Shown here one piece after another: positions 12,790 to 24,171 of a stretch of DNA of 64,000 nucleotides. Source of the DNA: Bacteroidia bacterium (GTDB taxonomy: Bacteria > Bacteroidota > Bacteroidia > SpSt-205). Made by a program: the position numbers and the translations under genes. The notes beneath the pieces are model-generated. The model searched no databases, was not told the DNA's origin, and worked only from the letters and a program-made list of their open reading frames with translations. The stretch is taken from assembly GCA_026003215.1 (NCBI GenBank), contig BPGV01000001.1, positions 1,889,729-1,953,728 on the forward strand, read 5' to 3'. Each line of letters opens with the position of its first letter. Position 1 is the stretch's first letter.

Positions 12790-13257
12790 ATGTCGGTGGT
12801 GCGCATACTACTGGGTGTTGTCTTGGGGATAAGCGGGGGGTGGGGCCAAGAGGTGCCTGAAAAAAGCTATACTCGCGCCATGCAGCGGATTACTCCCCCT
12901 TCTGTCACGCCGGTGGGGCCTTACAGCCCTGCTGTCCGGGTAGGGCCGTGGTTGTTTATATCAGGACAGATTGCCCTCAAGCCAGATGGTAGCATAGAAA
13001 AAAGCTCCATAGAGCAAGAAACCGAGCAAGTTCTCGCTAATCTTCGCGTTATTTTGGAGGCGGCTGGGGCTAAACCCGAGCAGATGGTTAAGGTGACGAT
13101 ATTTCTCACGGACATGGCTTTTTTTGCACAGGTCAATAGCGTATATGAGCGATTTTTCCCGGCGGGGGCCTATCCCGCCCGGGAGACGGTGGCGGTAGCG
13201 GCCCTTCCTCGGGGTGCTCGAATAGAAATCTCAGCCATAGCTTACCTGGGCGAATGA
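12790..13257 (+). CDS. RidA-family protein with N-terminal signal peptide
   Basis: 155 residues. Residues 1-20 form a hydrophobic signal peptide ending in GWGQ, followed by VPEKS and, from residue 31, a full RidA/YjgF domain (PVGPYSPAV, FISGQIAL, the Arg-containing YPARETVAV, and the final IEISAIAYL). RidA proteins hydrolyse reactive 2-aminoacrylate imines and are normally cytoplasmic; here the upstream ATG is backed by a -7 box 4 bases away, so export is likely. An internal ATG at residue 31 would give a normal cytoplasmic RidA. The stop overlaps the next start as ATGA. Confidence 0.85.
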   Translation: MSVVRILLGVVLGISGGWGQEVPEKSYTRAMQRITPPSVTPVGPYSPAVRVGPWLFISGQIALKPDGSIEKSSIEQETEQVLANLRVILEAAGAKPEQMVKVTIFLTDMAFFAQVNSVYERFFPAGAYPARETVAVAALPRGARIEISAIAYLGE

Positions 13258-14982
13258 TGCGATGGCTGGGGTGGAGTGTGGCGCTTTTCTGTGGGGCTTG
13301 CTGGGGCCAGCCTCCCCCAGAAAAAAGCCGATGGGCTATCCCTGATACCGTAGAAGCATACACAAGGTTAGATACGGTGTATGGTTTTTTGCAGGTGGAC
13401 AGTAGTAAGCTATTTCTGGCCGGACACCTGCGAGCGGTGTGGGAGCTGCTTCGGGCGAATACCCGTAAAGTACGGGTCCTCCACATAGGCGACTCCCATT
13501 TACAAGGAGAGGTCCAAGGTCGGGAGATTCGCAAGCGGCTCTATGCGCTCTGGGGAGAAGGCGGCAGGGGCTACGTGTTTCCGTATGCCATTGCGCATAC
13601 CAGCTCAGCCTATGACTATGTAAGCCTGGGCCGGGGGCAATGGCTCTCGGCGCGGAGCGCGCATTTTCAACCGGCGCTTCCGCTCAGTGTGACGGGCATG
13701 GCCATAGGTACATATGACTCGCAGGCAGAGTGGCAGATACGCTGGGCCCCTGCCTACACCCCGGTAACCCGAGGCCAGGCTACCCTTACCTTGCTGACCC
13801 GTACCCTGCGTCCCGGTATCCGAGTTCAGCTTCAAGTCGATTCGCTGCCAGCGGTTTCGCGGGAGCTGCCCGTGGGACTCAGTCGTACAGACTTTGCGAT
13901 AGGAAACCTTGCTTCCTTGCTACGAGGAGGATTCCGCTGGAATGGCGAAGACTCTTTAGCCTACGGCGAGCTCCATGGGATTTTTATTGAAGAGGGCCTG
14001 CAAGGTATTACTTGGTACAGCATGGGGGGTGAACGGCGCTCGCCTTTCGGACTGGGCCACCCTCCCGCTTCTCAAAGAGAGCTTGCAGCTGTTGGCGCCA
14101 GACCTTGTGGTGATAGATTTAGGAACGAACGACCTATATGCAGCTGAGGCGTCCTTAGGGGCGTTTCGGCAAGCGTTGGAGGCGGCCATAGATACGATTC
14201 GGGCTGTTTTGCCGGGCGCCGCTATCTTGGTGACAACCCCGCAAGACTTTTATCGGCGCATGCGGCCTATCCCCGTAGTGGCGCAAGCCCCCCACTTGAT
14301 AAAATGGATAGCGGCCCAAAAACGAGTAGCTGTCTGGGATGCTTATACGGCGCTCGGGTCTATGCGGGACTGGCGCTTAGCGGGGCTTGCTCTTCCTGAT
14401 ATGGTACATTTGACGCCCGCTGGCTATGCCCTAAAAGGACAAATGCTGGCCCGTGCTTTCTTGCGCGCCTATGCCGCTTTTTTGCGGGATAGTTTAGTGG
14501 ATCCGATGGTAGAGGCACTTACCGTTCCAGCCCTCCCGGAGTCGCTTTTTCGCCCACCCCCTCGTCCAGTCCCCCTCACGCCTTCTATCACGCAGTTTGG
14601 CAGGAATAACTCCTCTACGGCGGCGACCTATGCGCCGCCACGCCCAGCTTATATCTATCACAAGGTACGCCCGGGCGAAACCCTAAGTGAAATCGCTCAA
14701 CGCTATCGTACTTCGGTGCGGACCATCCAACGAGCGAATGGGCTGCGGGGTACTTTCCTCCGAGCAGGTCAGACCTTACGCATCCCTACCACAGGCGGTG
14801 CTGGCGGCTCCTCAGCCCCTAAAAGTTCATCAGCTACTGCACGAACCCACGTGGTTCGATCTGGGGAGTCGCTTTGGAGTATCGCGCAGAAGTATGGGGT
14901 CTCCGTGGAGGCGCTTTGCCGGGCTAATGGTCTCACCCTCAGAAGCGCCATTCACCCCGGCCAGCGCCTCCGAATCCCCTAA
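13254..14982 (+). pseudogene. SGNH/GDSL hydrolase with two LysM domains, split by a one-base frameshift
   Basis: Two frames read as one protein. The first (13254-about 14028) has a signal peptide ending in CWGQ, PPPEKS, then an SGNH hydrolase start (VLHIGDSHLQGE). The second carries VNGARLSDW, the DLGTNDLY block, the DMVHLTPAGY block with the catalytic Asp/His, and two LysM domains (about the last 110 residues: VRPGETLSEIAQRY and VRSGESLWSIAQKYG). Removing one G from the six-G run at 14024-14029 joins them as WYSM-G-VNGA. The family includes periplasmic esterases; LysM binds peptidoglycan. Either a base-calling error, a real mutation or a programmed shift. It overlaps the ridA-like gene by 4 bases and abuts the next convergent gene with no gap. 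Confidence 0.8.
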
Positions 14983-18528: not shown

Positions 18529-21500
18529 TTAGGGGGTAGAAGGGGGCAGAAGCTTTTTTCTGCGCTCGGGTAGGTAGAAGCCTTTTCGGAGGCGAAGGCC
18601 GGCGCCTTGGCTGGAGGCGCCAGCAAGGCCCCAGTGGAAAGTCTGCCGGCTAAAGCCCTCTACCTCTACCTGCCATTGGGTGGGGCTGGTGAGACGCTGC
18701 GGCAGGAGCCTATACCGCGCCGAGAGGTTGCCCAGGGAGGCAGTGCTCTGCCCAGGGGCCACCAAGACCCCATCCCGCTCCAAGGTGAAGCGCTGTCCCA
18801 AGGAAAGCCGCAATTGCGCCGAGAGTTCGTTCCACTGGCCGAGGGTGAAGGCCACGCCGAGCTGGTGGCCTAAGCTCTGACCGAGCCAGCCGGCGAGCTG
18901 CGCCGAGAGAAACTCCGCTAAGGTGGAACTGACTCCTGAGCTGACCTGCTGGGTGCCCAGTCCCTGTTCCATCGGCACGAAGGTGCCCAGCACCATCAGC
19001 GCAAAGACCTGGCGATTGCGCTCTTGCTCATCAGTACTCAGCCGCTGAAGAAAAAGGTTCACCATGGGCGAGGTATTTCCCCCAACGGAAGGAATGTCTA
19101 TTTGGAAGCTCATTTGGGGGGAGAGGAGGCTCCCCCGCAGGAGCACGCGCACATCCACCGGCACTGTGTACGTGAAGCTGGTGTCAATCATGCGTAAGGA
19201 AGTGAAAGTGCGGTAGGTAGCGGTGAGGTTCATCTGGCCGGCGTAGAGGTCGCCGTCCCAGGTGATGAGACCGCCCGCCTCCAGGGCAAGTTTTTTAGCG
19301 GCGATGCCTTGGAGGTTGATACGGTATTCGCCGCCTTGGACTTCGTAGGAGCCGGAGAGGGCGACAGCGCCTTCTGGATCTATGGAGAGGAGGAGGTTAG
19401 CCGAGCCTTGCGCTACAATCTCATCGCCGGTGCGTTCGTCAAAGAGGAGGCGGAAGCGAGTCAGCGGCGCCGATCGTAGCGCTATACGCATATCTACGCC
19501 GGCAGGGACAGGGAGGGGGGATAGGGTGTCTCTTTCCGTGCCGGCGGAAATGAAATGCACGTGGGGGGTACTCAGGGTGCGTTCGTAGGTTTGGAGGGGG
19601 AGGGTGAGGTCGGTGGTTTCGGAGAAGCGCAGCGTTCCACGGAGGGTGGGTTTGTTCCAGGGGCCGGTAAGGGTAAGATTGCCCTCTTCCAGCTCGGCTC
19701 GGCCATAGAGGTAGGCATCGGCTGTAGAGGGTGTGGCTGCCAGGAGGAAAGGGCGGTCTTGGAGGCGAAAGCGCAGGTCCAAATAAGGCGTGTGCCCCCC
19801 TTTCCAGGTTAGGGAGCCGGTCAAGAAGGCGCGTTTGCCCTGCAGCTCGCGTACCTCTACATCCGGAAAAATCAACGTATCGCCGCGCAGACGTGTGATG
19901 CCCTCTACCGTATAGCGTATGCGCGTGAAGGGTACATAAAAGCTCACGTTATCGCAGAAGACCTCGCCAAATAGGGCGGGTTCTCGCCAGGTGCCTCGTA
20001 CGATGAGACGGGCGCTGCGGAGGCTCCCTTGCGGATTTTGGATGTATTCGCCTAAGAAGGGGGCGAGCCAGGCGGCAGGTAGGTTTAGGTGAGAGACTTC
20101 GGCAAAGAGGGGACTGAGGGTGTCTGAGAGCAGGTAGTAGCCTTTGCCGATGAGGTATTGGGCGGGTTTTTGGCCTATGCCGAGGCGGAAAGGCAGCGAA
20201 TCGCCGATGGTTTTGCCGTCGGCCCAGAGGAGGGGGTAGCTTTGTCCTTCGTAGCGCAGGGAGTCTATGCGCAGGGAAAAGGTAGGGAAGTCGCCTTGCT
20301 GCTGCCAGCTGAGCCAGAGGAGGCCTTCTACGGGGAGGGCTTCACCCAAGAGGCTGAGGGGTTCGGCTAAGGGAAGGGCCTCCACTTGCAGGGTTAGACG
20401 GCTGGTATCTCCGGCAAAAATGACCCGCGAACGCGCACTGTGGGCAGAGAGCTCTTGTATGCGCCATGCGCCGCTGGTAGATAGCAGAAGCGGCTTCGCT
20501 GTCAGCTGCCAGCGTCGCTGGTAGCTGGTGAGGTAAGTTTCCTCCGGTTGGAGAAGAAAGCGGATGGGTTCGTTGCCTCGGGCCCATTGCCACGCTAAGG
20601 CTATGGTGAGGGAATCGTAGCGATCTCCAATATGCCCGTGCAGGTGTATTTCGCCGGCGTGGAGGTTTCCTCTGATCGAGAGTTCAGCGTCTTGGTAAAG
20701 GAGGTAGACTTTCCCTCCGCCAAGGGTGCCTTCTATTTCCCAGTGAGGAAGCGAATCCTGCACGAAATGCAGAGTCAGGTCGGCCCTTTTGAGGTGGATA
20801 GCCGAGAAGGCTAAACTGTCAAAACTGAGCTGAAGGCGGCCGCTAAGCTGCCCCGGCGTTTGCTTGACTTCTGCATGGAATGCTGTACCATATACCATGG
20901 GGAAGGGGTGTAGCCCGGCCAAGGGCCACCAGACAGGATTTTGGATGTACCCTTGGGCTTTTATAGTCCAAGGGGAAGAGAAGGTGTCGGGGTTCCATGT
21001 GCCTTCGGTGAGCCAGTGCGCCCAGGGATAGGCGAGGTGGCTCAAGCCCACTATCCACAAGGAATCTCCCGTGAGAGCGAGAGAGAGGCCTCGGCCGCGC
21101 AGGGAGTAGGTGCGCCCTTGCTCCACAGAAAGTTGGAGGGGCCCCAGCCCATATAGCGTATCCTCTGTGGTCCAGAGCAGAGAGTCTAAGGTAAGGGTGG
21201 CTGTGCCTTCCGCCCAAGGAAGGCCCTTCCCATGTAAGGCAAAGGAACTGGTCAAACCGCCATAACTTCCCCAAAGCTGGGCTTGGAGATGGGAAAAGTA
21301 CCCTTGGCCTGTGTATATACCCTTTTCGGTGAGGGGTAAGCGGCCTACATAAGTCATCGTCCCCTGAGGACTTGAGAAGAGGAACTCCCCTTGTAGGGCC
21401 TGAGCAGCAATCTCGCCTTGGCTGCGGAGGTGTAGCTCCCCATACGCCGGAGAGCTGCCCCGCAGATCCACTTGTAGGTGGGCGGTAAGGTCGGGCAGGG

Positions 21501-22824
21501 TAAAGTGTATACCTTCTATGGTAGCCTTGCCGGAGAGAGTCGTGAGGGGACTTTGCGGCCAGAGGGTGCGAGGATCCCAGTTTGTGCAATAAAACTGCCC
21601 GCGGTAGTGCCAAGCGGTATCTTGCCGGAGGATGCTCTGTACGGCAAGGGAGGGCGTTTCGAGGGTGCTTTCATAGGCTCGGAGCGAACCCCGATGCACT
21701 GCCTGAAAGTGCCATACATACTGGGTATCTAATGCCTCAGGGAAGGTCACCACGGGAATGTTTCGCTGGATGTCGGCCAGACTTAAGGAGGCCTCTTCCA
21801 GGCGGGCTTGCCAGTGCATGAGGGCCGGCTTAGCATAGCGGAAGATGGCCCCCTCTCCCCGGAGAAAGCGCCCCGGCGCTACCTCTATCCGAAAGCGCTG
21901 GGCTTGGAAGTGGTACAGGTCGCCTGCTACCTCTAAGCGTACCTGCCAGGTACCAGCCACAGGCACGGAATCCCCGATGAAGGCGTAAAGCTCTCTCCAG
22001 CAGAGCTGCCCGGTGAGTGTGGCATTAAAGGTTTTGGTATCGGTATTGGAAAAGAGCTCATCTAAGCCTTCTTGGTGAAACTTACCGTGGCCATGGAGGT
22101 GGGACGTAGGAAGTTGCACGGCTAAGGCGGGTATGACCGTGCTATCTGGGTAGGCTTGCAGGATGAGGCTCAGATGCGGCAAGCGGAGGAGGCTATGGGT
22201 CTCCTTTAAGGAGAGGTGGCGGATGTGCGCAAATAGGCGTCCTTGACCGAGCCATTCTATGGCGGCATTGAGCGAGAGGGAGTCAAAGGCCAAGTGGGCA
22301 TAGTTGAGAAAAGGCGGTTTCGGTCGGAGTAGGGAGTCCGCTTGCGTTGAGTCGCACCAGCGGAAGCGTCCCTCCTGAATACGAAAGAAGGGAAGGCTTA
22401 CTTGCCATTTGCTCGAAGAAGTATCCGTGGTATCCGGCGGAAAAAGGCGATCTACGTTGGTGAGGCCGGACTGGCGTTCTACATAGATAAAGACCTCTGG
22501 GCGGTACAAGGTGAGCGCGGAGAGGGGTAGGCGTAGGTGTCCTTTCCAGAAACCGCGCCAAAAAGCGGAGATACTCCAGCCGAGCTGGGCTTCTTGCACG
22601 CGCACGAAGGGCTGACAAGCTTTGTCGTAAATCGTGAGCCCCTCTATGGAAAGGTGCGCAGGGCCGCTGAGTTTGAGGTTTTGTAGCTCTACGTCCGTCT
22701 CCAAGGCCGCTTCTAAGAGAAGCAGCACCTGGTGTCGCAAGGAACGCTGCCCTGCAGGCAGGCTAAGGGTTACCTGGAGGGCTATGAGGAGTATGAGCCA
22801 CAGGAGGAGGAGGCCCCCCACCAC
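18529..22824 (-). CDS. tamB: TamB-like translocation/assembly module (DUF490 C-terminus)
   Basis: About 1,432 residues from the GTG at 22824. A membrane helix (about 3-22) is followed by P-A-G-Q and a very long beta-rich region with AsmA/TamB-type strands, ending in a DUF490 domain in the last ~400 residues (MVNLFLQRLSTDEQERNRQ, FALMVLGTF, GWLGQSLGHQLGVAF). TamB-type proteins bridge inner and outer membranes and carry phospholipids or assist outer-membrane protein insertion. The start is unclear: the frame stays open back through the tRNA gene, and the first codon after the tRNA 3' end is an in-frame CTG (22857), so initiation between 22857 and 22821 is possible. Its only visible promoter is that of the tRNA. 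Confidence 0.85.
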   Translation of the reverse strand: MVGGLLLLWLILLIALQVTLSLPAGQRSLRHQVLLLLEAALETDVELQNLKLSGPAHLSIEGLTIYDKACQPFVRVQEAQLGWSISAFWRGFWKGHLRLPLSALTLYRPEVFIYVERQSGLTNVDRLFPPDTTDTSSSKWQVSLPFFRIQEGRFRWCDSTQADSLLRPKPPFLNYAHLAFDSLSLNAAIEWLGQGRLFAHIRHLSLKETHSLLRLPHLSLILQAYPDSTVIPALAVQLPTSHLHGHGKFHQEGLDELFSNTDTKTFNATLTGQLCWRELYAFIGDSVPVAGTWQVRLEVAGDLYHFQAQRFRIEVAPGRFLRGEGAIFRYAKPALMHWQARLEEASLSLADIQRNIPVVTFPEALDTQYVWHFQAVHRGSLRAYESTLETPSLAVQSILRQDTAWHYRGQFYCTNWDPRTLWPQSPLTTLSGKATIEGIHFTLPDLTAHLQVDLRGSSPAYGELHLRSQGEIAAQALQGEFLFSSPQGTMTYVGRLPLTEKGIYTGQGYFSHLQAQLWGSYGGLTSSFALHGKGLPWAEGTATLTLDSLLWTTEDTLYGLGPLQLSVEQGRTYSLRGRGLSLALTGDSLWIVGLSHLAYPWAHWLTEGTWNPDTFSSPWTIKAQGYIQNPVWWPLAGLHPFPMVYGTAFHAEVKQTPGQLSGRLQLSFDSLAFSAIHLKRADLTLHFVQDSLPHWEIEGTLGGGKVYLLYQDAELSIRGNLHAGEIHLHGHIGDRYDSLTIALAWQWARGNEPIRFLLQPEETYLTSYQRRWQLTAKPLLLSTSGAWRIQELSAHSARSRVIFAGDTSRLTLQVEALPLAEPLSLLGEALPVEGLLWLSWQQQGDFPTFSLRIDSLRYEGQSYPLLWADGKTIGDSLPFRLGIGQKPAQYLIGKGYYLLSDTLSPLFAEVSHLNLPAAWLAPFLGEYIQNPQGSLRSARLIVRGTWREPALFGEVFCDNVSFYVPFTRIRYTVEGITRLRGDTLIFPDVEVRELQGKRAFLTGSLTWKGGHTPYLDLRFRLQDRPFLLAATPSTADAYLYGRAELEEGNLTLTGPWNKPTLRGTLRFSETTDLTLPLQTYERTLSTPHVHFISAGTERDTLSPLPVPAGVDMRIALRSAPLTRFRLLFDERTGDEIVAQGSANLLLSIDPEGAVALSGSYEVQGGEYRINLQGIAAKKLALEAGGLITWDGDLYAGQMNLTATYRTFTSLRMIDTSFTYTVPVDVRVLLRGSLLSPQMSFQIDIPSVGGNTSPMVNLFLQRLSTDEQERNRQVFALMVLGTFVPMEQGLGTQQVSSGVSSTLAEFLSAQLAGWLGQSLGHQLGVAFTLGQWNELSAQLRLSLGQRFTLERDGVLVAPGQSTASLGNLSARYRLLPQRLTSPTQWQVEVEGFSRQTFHWGLAGASSQGAGLRLRKGFYLPERRKKLLPPSTP

Positions 22825-22857
22825 GTAGCCCCCCCAGCGTAGCAGCCTGCGAATCAG

Positions 22858-22941
22858 TGCCCAGAGCCGGACTCGAACCGGCACGGAGTTGCCTCCACCA
22901 GTTTTTGAGACTGGCGCGTCTACCGATTCCGCCATCTGGGC
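22858..22941 (-). tRNA. tRNA-Leu (anticodon CAA)
   Basis: 84 bases with a 7-bp acceptor stem (GCCCAGA with TCTGGGC), discriminator A, anticodon stem CCAGT/ACTGG around loop CTCAAAA, a long class II variable arm (GGAG/CTCC) and a T arm containing GGTTCGAGTCC. The 3' CCA is not encoded. It lies 33 bases upstream of the chosen tamB start on the same strand. The D, anticodon and T regions happen to be open in the tamB frame, which makes the protein ORF look longer than it is. Confidence 0.95.
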
Positions 22942-22956
22942 CGCATAATAGCCCCA

Positions 22957-22964
22957 CAAAGGTA
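22957..22964 (-). promoter_or_regulatory. -7 box TACCTTTG of tRNA-Leu and tamB
   Basis: Exact consensus, 15 bases before the first base of the tRNA, leaving a 5' leader of roughly 10 bases for RNase P. It is 25 bases from the divergent ccmE box. Confidence 0.7.
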
Positions 22965-22989
22965 CAAACTCCCCCGGCAAAAATGTTCC

Positions 22990-22997
22990 TACCTTTG
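22990..22997 (+). promoter_or_regulatory. -7 box TACCTTTG of ccmE
   Basis: Exact consensus, 5 bases before the ATG at 23003. Confidence 0.7.
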
Positions 22998-23002
22998 CTT
23001 GT

Positions 23003-23383
23003 ATGAGGCTGCTAACGGGTGCGGTAGCAGTAGGCCTACTCCTGGCCCTACTTCTATGGAATCTCAGCGGGGAGCTTACGATATATGCGGACTTTCAGAC
23101 TGCAGCGGCTAATCCCGGCAAAACCTACCATGTTGTAGCCGAATGGATAGACCGAGAGCAGAGTTATTACGACCCCGCTCAGGATGCCTTTTGGTTCAAG
23201 GCGCAGGACAGCGTGGGACACACGAGCTGGGTACGGTATCCTGACCCTAAGCCCATTAACTTTGATGCGGCGCATAAAGTCGTTTTGATTGGGCACCAGC
23301 AGGATACGGTGTTTTATGCCGAGAAGATCCTCATGAAATGCCCTTCTAAGTACAAAGAGGAGGGTTCGTCGGCGAGCCTGTGA
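23003..23383 (+). CDS. ccmE: Cytochrome c maturation protein CcmE, CxxxY type
   Basis: 126 residues: one N-terminal membrane helix (about 3-20) and an OB-fold-like periplasmic domain (TYHVVAEW, FWFKAQDS, KVVLIG, VFYAEKILMKCPSKY). CcmE carries haem to apocytochrome c. In E. coli a His binds haem; this protein has C113-P-S-K-Y117, the C-x3-Y variant known from Desulfovibrio and archaea. The partner ccmF lies downstream after an SDR gene and nuoC. The stop overlaps the next GTG start by 3 bases. Confidence 0.85.
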   Translation: MRLLTGAVAVGLLLALLLWNLSGELTIYADFQTAAANPGKTYHVVAEWIDREQSYYDPAQDAFWFKAQDSVGHTSWVRYPDPKPINFDAAHKVVLIGHQQDTVFYAEKILMKCPSKYKEEGSSASL

Positions 23384-24171
23384 GGGCTGTATGGATTACG
23401 GGGGCCTCTTCGGGGATTGGGGAGGCCTTGGCGCGTCTTTTTGCCGAGAAAGGGTGGCGGGTATTGGCTCAAGCGCGCCGAGCCGAACGCTTGGAGGCCT
23501 TGCGTGAAGCTTATCCCGAAAAGATAGTGCCTTTTGTGGGCGATGTGCGCGATTTTGCCGTCTGCCAAGCAGCGGTAGCACAGGCACGCCAGCACTTTGG
23601 GGGGCTGCACGCCGTCATAGCGAATGCCGGCATTTCTCACCGTGCTACCGTAGAAGCGGTTTCCTTGCAAGTGCTACGCGAAGTGATGGAGGTGAACTTC
23701 TGGGGAGCGGTGCATGCTATCAAGGCGGCCCTGCCTCTTGTAAAAGAGACTCGGGGTTGGATAGTAGGGGTTTCTTCTATTGCGGGATTTCGGGGGCTCC
23801 CGGCGCGAAGTGGATACAGTGCCTCTAAGTTTGCGTTGAATGGATTCTTAGAAGCGCTGCGGACGGAGTTGTATGGCACGGGGGTTTCGGTGCTTATTGC
23901 CGCACCAGGCTTTACCCGAAGTGAGATACGGCAGAGAGCCCTTACGGCCGAGGGCCTTCCCCAGGGCGAGAGCCCCCTTCCAGAAGGTACCCTCATGTCT
24001 GCCGAAGAAGTGGCACAAAGGATTTACCAGGCCATGGTACGGCGCCGCAAGTACCTCGTTCTCACTACCCAAGGCCGCCTCACGGTGTGGCTTAGTCGCT
24101 TGTGGCCGGGCCTACTGGATGGCTTGGTGTATCGCCATTTCAAAAACGAAGCAGACTCTCCGCTCGCCTAA
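23380..24171 (+). CDS. Short-chain dehydrogenase/reductase
   Basis: 263 residues with the Rossmann motif T7-G-A-S-S-G-I-G14, N-A-G at 82-84, the active-site Ser near 132, and Y146-S-A-S-K150. It is a classical SDR with NAD(P)-dependent oxidoreductase activity; the substrate cannot be told. The GTG start (GTGA) overlaps the ccmE stop and the Rossmann strand begins at residue 3, so no upstream start is needed. Cytoplasmic. Read through from the ccmE promoter. Confidence 0.88.
   Translation: MRAVWITGASSGIGEALARLFAEKGWRVLAQARRAERLEALREAYPEKIVPFVGDVRDFAVCQAAVAQARQHFGGLHAVIANAGISHRATVEAVSLQVLREVMEVNFWGAVHAIKAALPLVKETRGWIVGVSSIAGFRGLPARSGYSASKFALNGFLEALRTELYGTGVSVLIAAPGFTRSEIRQRALTAEGLPQGESPLPEGTLMSAEEVAQRIYQAMVRRRKYLVLTTQGRLTVWLSRLWPGLLDGLVYRHFKNEADSPLA

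Follow-up and report, generated by a model that had tools for sequence, protein, structure and literature searches.

In animal mitochondria, tRNA genes abut protein genes and excision of the tRNAs sets the ends of the mRNAs, an arrangement known as tRNA punctuation. Bacteria have tRNA-mRNA operons; E. coli examples are tyrT-tpr and the tRNA genes clustered before tufB. We analyzed a 64,000-nt stretch (the window) of a 2.27-Mb single-contig genome of a Bacteroidia bacterium, in which the gene for tRNA-Leu(CAA) runs into tamB. Our preferred reading of the sequence, to which we give a probability of roughly 0.56, is that tamB overlaps the tRNA gene and that the two share one transcript, for which tRNA maturation and TamB synthesis would compete. 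The features of the locus, in window coordinates, are as follows.

22990..22997, plus strand: -7 box TACCTTTG of a divergent CcmE-like gene, five bases upstream of the ATG at 23003, a leaderless-type spacing
22957..22964, minus strand: Bacteroidota -7 box TACCTTTG (TAnnTTTG motif) upstream of the tRNA
22858..22941, minus strand: tRNA-Leu(CAA), 84 nt by Infernal (genome positions 1912586-1912669), with no encoded CCA
22933..22935, minus strand: ATG at tRNA nt 7-9, in-frame candidate start of tamB, giving MAESVDAPVSKTGGG...
22882..22884, minus strand: GTG at tRNA nt 58-60, in-frame candidate start of tamB, giving MPVRVRLWA-LIRRLLRWGG...
22855..22857, minus strand: in-frame CTG previously proposed as the start, not conserved
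22825..22857, minus strand: eleven codons from the tRNA to the first canonical start, encoding the cationic anchor flank LIRRLLRWGGY
22822..22824, minus strand: GTG, first canonical in-frame start past the tRNA, 33 bases on, at the helix edge
22768..22824, minus strand: likely membrane anchor, the 19 residues of highest hydrophobicity (Kyte-Doolittle mean 2.52)
18529..22857, minus strand: tamB coding sequence past the tRNA, with PF04357 at residues 1006-1425 of this part

ARAGORN placed the tRNA at 22857-22941 on the minus strand, one C more than Infernal, and we preferred the 84-nt Infernal boundary because it fits the acceptor stem and the discriminator A. The last base called by ARAGORN was a C in 40 of the genome's own 44 tRNAs and in 24 of the 25 examined in the related genome G012, though CCA is mostly unencoded. 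Only one of the genome's 44 tRNA matches carries the CAA anticodon (ARAGORN read 44 tRNAs at those loci). The same-strand ORF ending at 18529 matched the TamB domain PF04357 at 123 bits against a cut-off of 22.4, and it has both parts that define the TamB class, a C-terminal TamB domain (Pfam) and an N-terminal membrane anchor (Kyte-Doolittle helix). The initial annotation of this DNA had described tRNA-Leu(CAA) leading directly into tamB, and the arrangement is as it said: the two lie on the same strand, with the first canonical start, GTG 22824-22822, 33 bases past the tRNA. Its statement that the tamB frame stays open through the whole tRNA also held, across all 28 triplets, and the same frame is found in 10 of 12 genomes.

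Elsewhere in the window, two overlapping plus-strand ORFs (13254-14147 and 13975-14982) resemble a single GDSL/SGNH hydrolase with LysM repeats that has been split by a frameshift. Pfam found the GDSL and LysM domains only in the 13975-14982 ORF and returned no match for the 13254-14147 ORF.

The order comprises 13 genomes, and tamB was found in 12 of them. In all 12, tRNA-Leu(CAA) lies directly 5′ of tamB on the same strand. Nine relatives gave a full-length TamB match, at 41-53% identity. The remaining member, G012 (77% complete), had no tamB match; there, tRNA-Leu(CAA) precedes a gene whose ATG lies nine bases past the discriminator. We rejected the idea that this gene is a diverged tamB, as it encodes a thiolase. 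Beyond the order we searched 47 genomes of the class and counted the 29 that had a tRNA match at E 1e-8, leaving the other 18 uncounted. All 29 have tamB, and adjacency by coordinates was seen in none of them: three had the pair on one contig, far apart, and 26 had it on different contigs, where a contig break is possible. The initial annotation had asked whether tRNA-Leu always precedes tamB in relatives, which is so within the order (12/12) and not in the wider class (0/29 adjacent), and we do not treat the arrangement as a class-wide trait. A scan of genome contigs for related loci returned one locus, from the MAG SKYB7.

TamB is highly diverged within the genus, with a median end branch of 0.88 changes per column in the N-terminal half, and the junction has therefore had time to drift. 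Judged from this gene order, the tRNA-Leu(CAA)-tamB neighborhood is old. The tamB tree that we built to count frame changes was mostly unresolved, and G007 was not separated on it from the genomes that share the frame of our window.

In those ten genomes (hereafter, read-through genomes) tamB is in frame 1 of the tRNA, and in all ten that frame has no stop and contains AUG at nt 7-9 and GUG at nt 58-60. Both codons are fixed by tRNA function, so that their presence in 10/10 is not independent evidence, and the genomes are related, so that they do not represent ten independent events. Frame 2 of the tRNA has a stop followed by GUG at nt 44-46, and frame 3 is open without a canonical start. With a start available in two of the three tRNA frames, little can be concluded from the matching frame by itself.

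In 10 of the 12 genomes, the stretch that leads from the tRNA to the membrane helix is free of canonical starts. The first canonical start is reached after 11 codons here and after 13 to 40 codons in the other nine, and it falls at the helix edge in one genome, inside the helix in seven and beyond it in two. Over the 210 codons that separate the tRNA end from the first canonical start in these ten genomes there are no stops, whereas one of the remaining frames has 20 and the other 4. An untranslated stretch could freely gather stops, and because this one has none it looks coding. Within the first nine codons, 27 of 90 residues are lysine or arginine and none is aspartate or glutamate (6/10 and 10/7, respectively, in the other frames). 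A cationic stretch of this kind is the usual flank of a membrane anchor under the positive-inside rule. Purifying selection on the first eight codons was weak and not significant (pN/pS of 0.82, column-shuffle mean of 0.99, 44 of 500 shuffles as low). We consider that there is good sequence support for a coding stretch from the tRNA edge to the helix.

Because that coding stretch holds no canonical start before the helix, the AUG and GUG of the tRNA are left as the canonical candidates, and the most likely place for the tamB start is within the tRNA, either the AUG of nt 7-9 or the GUG of nt 58-60. In G006 and G004 an in-frame stop lies one codon and two codons before the tRNA, respectively, so translation cannot enter from upstream there. 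The leader that would precede the AUG, estimated from box spacing only, is 8-11 nt in nine of the ten read-through genomes and 17 nt here. The predicted fold of the tRNA was not a cloverleaf and is uninformative on access to either start codon.

G007 and G011 are arranged differently. Their tamB is in frame 2, with a canonical start past the tRNA (ATG at +20 in G007; TTG at +2 in G011), and the tRNA of G011 has a stop in frame 1. In these two genomes the coding sequence starts after the tRNA, as in a tRNA-mRNA operon. In the other 10 of 12 it appears not to, nor does tamB seem to have its start codon at the tRNA 3′ end as tRNA punctuation would have it. The number of residues ahead of the helix is 14 in G007 and 9 in G011; in the read-through genomes it would be 10-22 from the GUG and 27-39 from the AUG. 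The tamB gene of G007 is in three pieces in the assembly, and the G007 dxr gene (L089) has four in-frame stops. The G007 assembly may contain frame errors.

The initial annotation had offered another route, in which processing at the tRNA 3′ end frees a leaderless or near-leaderless tamB mRNA that is translated from the CTG at 22857-22855. This CTG does stand directly after the tRNA and in frame. We rejected it as the tamB start because it is not conserved: it is present in one of the ten read-through genomes, ours, and the others have CGA (four), CGG (three), CAG (one) or CTA (one). A more general form of the same idea lets translation begin at whichever non-canonical codon comes first (CTG here; CGA, CGG, CAG or CTA in relatives). 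It would give an N-terminal length like that of G007 and G011, and it suits a genome that has leaderless-type promoter spacing, encodes a candidate RNase Z and has other genes starting right after tRNAs. Against it are the lack of conservation of that first codon in nine of ten genomes and the use of TTG, GTG or ATG as the start near the tRNA at the four other junctions that we followed. Moreover, cleavage at the 3′ end of the tRNA would leave tamB without the only canonical starts that lie upstream of its helix. On this sequence evidence we think the 3′-processing route unlikely for tamB in the read-through genomes. G007 and G011 could use it, and release of a leaderless mRNA in this way is plausible at other genes, such as dxr and L25.

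Alternatively, translation of tamB on a shared transcript could begin only at the next canonical start past the tRNA (here GTG 22824), with the stretch before it untranslated. In this genome a GTG GTG pair at 22824-22819 adjoins the helix edge, and gene callers that do not let coding sequences overlap tRNAs would presumably choose GTG 22824. The complete lack of stops and the charge pattern described above both speak against an untranslated stretch, and a start at 22822-22824 would cost the membrane anchor its positive flank. In the nine other genomes, the corresponding codon lies inside the helix (seven) or after it (two). We consider this reading improbable as well, and a start within the tRNA remains the one we favor.

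In the Bacteroidota studied so far, the -7 box, TAnnTTTG, occupies -12 to -5 and transcription begins 4-5 nt downstream of it, according to excerpts of PMC6847099 and PMC9723704. By this spacing, transcription would start at about 22952, 11 nt before the tRNA. The initial annotation had stated that the only box upstream is that of the tRNA, which our search bore out: 22964-22957 is the sole minus-strand TAnnTTTG between 18529 and 23200, and none lies inside the tRNA or tamB. No sigma-70-type promoter was found in 22500-23500. A separate tamB promoter inside or just after the tRNA, which had been named as the finding that would count against a link between the two genes, did not appear as either a TAnnTTTG or a sigma-70-type site. 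TAnnTTTG occurs 50 times in the window, against a mean of 25.4 in shuffled sequence, and none of 100 shuffles reached 50. A -7 box precedes tRNA-Leu(CAA) in all 12 order genomes with tamB. The locus thus has the layout of a tRNA-mRNA operon, with tRNA and coding sequence on the same strand (12/12) and no TAnnTTTG between them (in the window). Because the box stands before the tRNA in 12/12 genomes and no other was found on the minus strand within the window's tamB, tamB likely shares transcription from the tRNA's promoter. A promoter for another sigma factor in or just past the tRNA, with the overlap being incidental, is very unlikely. In its favor, 7% of the start sites mapped with high confidence in F. 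psychrophilum have alternative sigma motifs (excerpts of PMC9723704). Against it, no sigma-70-type or TAnnTTTG site lies within the tRNA, and the position of the start codon would still have to be explained. On the other side of the locus, the CcmE-like gene diverges from the tRNA, and the two boxes (22990-22997, plus strand; 22964-22957, minus strand) are 25 bases apart.

Under our preferred reading, the tamB coding sequence would overlap the same-strand tRNA-Leu(CAA) gene throughout this genus, and a single promoter before the tRNA would produce a joint tRNA-tamB RNA. Processing by RNase P and RNase Z would yield tRNA-Leu(CAA) and leave a tamB fragment that has no usable start. If instead a ribosome initiated first, at the in-frame GUG or AUG of an unprocessed or unfolded tRNA, TamB would be made. 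The two fates would be exclusive, with tRNA maturation and TamB synthesis competing for each transcript. The neighborhood, the frame, the coding character up to the tRNA edge, the lack of a canonical start in between and the lack of another -7 box come from the sequence; from these we infer co-transcription, processing at the discriminator, the choice of start codon and competition. The genome's candidate RNase Z scored 284 bits over residues 2-301 of 302, against a curated cut-off of 293, and scored 23 bits with the tRNase Z Pfam model, against a cut-off of 27. Cleavage at the 3′ end of the tRNA would detach tamB from its upstream canonical starts, so maturation would lower tamB output. The earlier suggestion that tRNA maturation sets tamB expression therefore survives in part: a shared transcript is likely, and the sign would be the opposite of the one proposed, since a start is removed rather than created. 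If this reading is right, a start codon within the gene for the sole CAA tRNA couples tRNA maturation to synthesis of an envelope-assembly factor, and start sites assigned by rules that bar overlap of coding sequences with tRNAs are wrong here.

Box spacing in the window bears on how common leaderless starts might be. For 22 of the 50 TAnnTTTG boxes, a start codon (ORF of at least 100 codons) lies 2-8 bases on, and in 11 cases the gap is exactly 4. Among 29 permuted motifs, a start codon stood at the same spacing in 60 of 639 cases (Fisher 2e-9 against TAnnTTTG). The leaderless spacing of 4 bases is the commonest box-to-start gap in the window, on both strands. We repeated the count under a stricter box definition, accepting ATG as the sole start codon, and compared gaps of 3-6 with gaps of 7-60. 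This gave 10/11 in the window, 15/4 at other loci of the same genome and 28/20 in genus relatives, whose loci are homologous and not independent. The corresponding counts were 4/16 in G047, 5/12 in G012 and 0/8 at 18 class loci (mostly inside tamB), and G012 has no such excess of leaderless-type spacing. Excerpts of published work put 5′ UTRs of <10 nt at ~3.7% in B. thetaiotaomicron (PMC7366714) and leaderless mRNAs at 5.5% in F. psychrophilum (PMC9723704), and report that in F. johnsoniae 87% of the predicted leaders are longer than 10 nt (among PMC6847099, PMC7366714 and PMC9723704). Judged by box spacing only, leaderless starts look common in this genome.

We also examined other tRNAs for genes that begin at their ends. 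With tamB excluded, an ORF of 130 codons or more began between -3 and +12, relative to the tRNA end, at 7 of 34 tRNAs in the same genome; these 34 had enough downstream sequence, and 10 of the 44 were omitted for a short flank. The class control G047 had no such ORF at 33 tRNAs (Fisher p 0.011), which were read at the loci of the best 30 of 41 matches in this one genome serving as the negative control. The pairs, with partners named by Pfam, were as follows.

tRNA-Val(cac): DXR
tRNA-Asp: LigA
tRNA-Arg(tcg): ribosomal protein L25/TL5
tRNA-His: DUF2480
tRNA-Met: OsmC
tRNA-Phe: PhoD-like phosphatase
tRNA-Thr(cgt): weak cytochrome and TPR model matches

We followed four of these junctions through the order (dxr, L25, ligA and DUF2480), leaving out OsmC, PhoD and the Thr partner. 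The start codon sits at the tRNA 3′ end, as in tRNA punctuation, for three of them. In 10/10 genus genomes with dxr, its TTG lies one base past the discriminator; in 11/11 genus genomes the L25 ATG is at one fixed place relative to the tRNA; and DUF2480 abuts tRNA-His in 8/9 genus genomes with a match, with no tRNA found beside it in G006. The fourth, ligA, follows tRNA-Asp in 10/10. Its spacing and frame vary, and in two genomes in-frame stops immediately precede its start, which makes ligA a useful contrast to tamB. G012 kept none of the three testable pairs (dxr, ligA, L25). It had close starts at 6 of 25 examined tRNAs, with other partners.

tRNA-Leu(CAA): thiolase
tRNA-His: histidyl-tRNA synthetase
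tRNA-Leu(tag): trigger-factor domain
tRNA-Gln: ribose-phosphate pyrophosphokinase
tRNA-Thr(cgt): TrkA/ion-channel protein
tRNA-Ser(gct): ORF without a Pfam match

The GTG of the histidyl-tRNA synthetase gene (L158) is three bases past the ARAGORN end of tRNA-His, and this tRNA and its own synthetase may share one transcript in G012. From these junctions, tamB would be one case of a wider habit of the order, in which start codons are placed directly after tRNAs. If so, the conserved dxr, L25, ligA and DUF2480 starts, which lie only a few bases from tRNA 3′ ends across the genus, would be a bacterial counterpart of mitochondrial tRNA punctuation. A bolder proposal, which we hold only tentatively and at somewhat less than even odds, is that the order uses tRNAs as detachable mRNA 5′ ends at many loci, with tamB as a one-RNA, two-fates switch that reads out tRNA maturation.

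As in animal mitochondria, genes here abut tRNAs, and mitochondrial mRNAs that follow tRNAs have little or no leader. Unlike mitochondria, this is a bacterial chromosome on which many tRNAs have their own -7 box and genes follow no more than a subset of the tRNAs. In addition, the start of tamB appears to lie within the tRNA rather than after it. As in the E. coli tufB and tyrT-tpr operons, a tRNA and a protein gene would be on one transcript; the E. coli genes have a leader and a start after the tRNA, whereas the starts here are inside the tRNA or within a few bases of it. Leaderless mRNAs of actinobacteria likewise have their start at or near the RNA 5′ end and allow GUG and UUG (excerpts of PMC3848588 and PMC4681348). 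Their 5′ ends come from transcription starts, however, and tRNA-derived ends are not mentioned in those excerpts. The locus shares the TAnnTTTG box at -12 to -5 with the Bacteroidota studied so far, which translate without Shine-Dalgarno sequences, and differs from them in that the leaderless box-to-start gap is the commonest here, while short leaders make up a far smaller share in the published data (excerpts of PMC6847099, PMC7366714 and PMC9723704). Judged by titles, the openings of abstracts and such excerpts, our searches of the open-licence literature turned up no paper on translation starts within bacterial tRNAs, and none on leaderless bacterial mRNAs released from tRNAs. Mitochondrial tRNA punctuation and bacterial tRNA-mRNA operons are known arrangements, and what appears to be new at this locus is the probable tamB start inside a tRNA.
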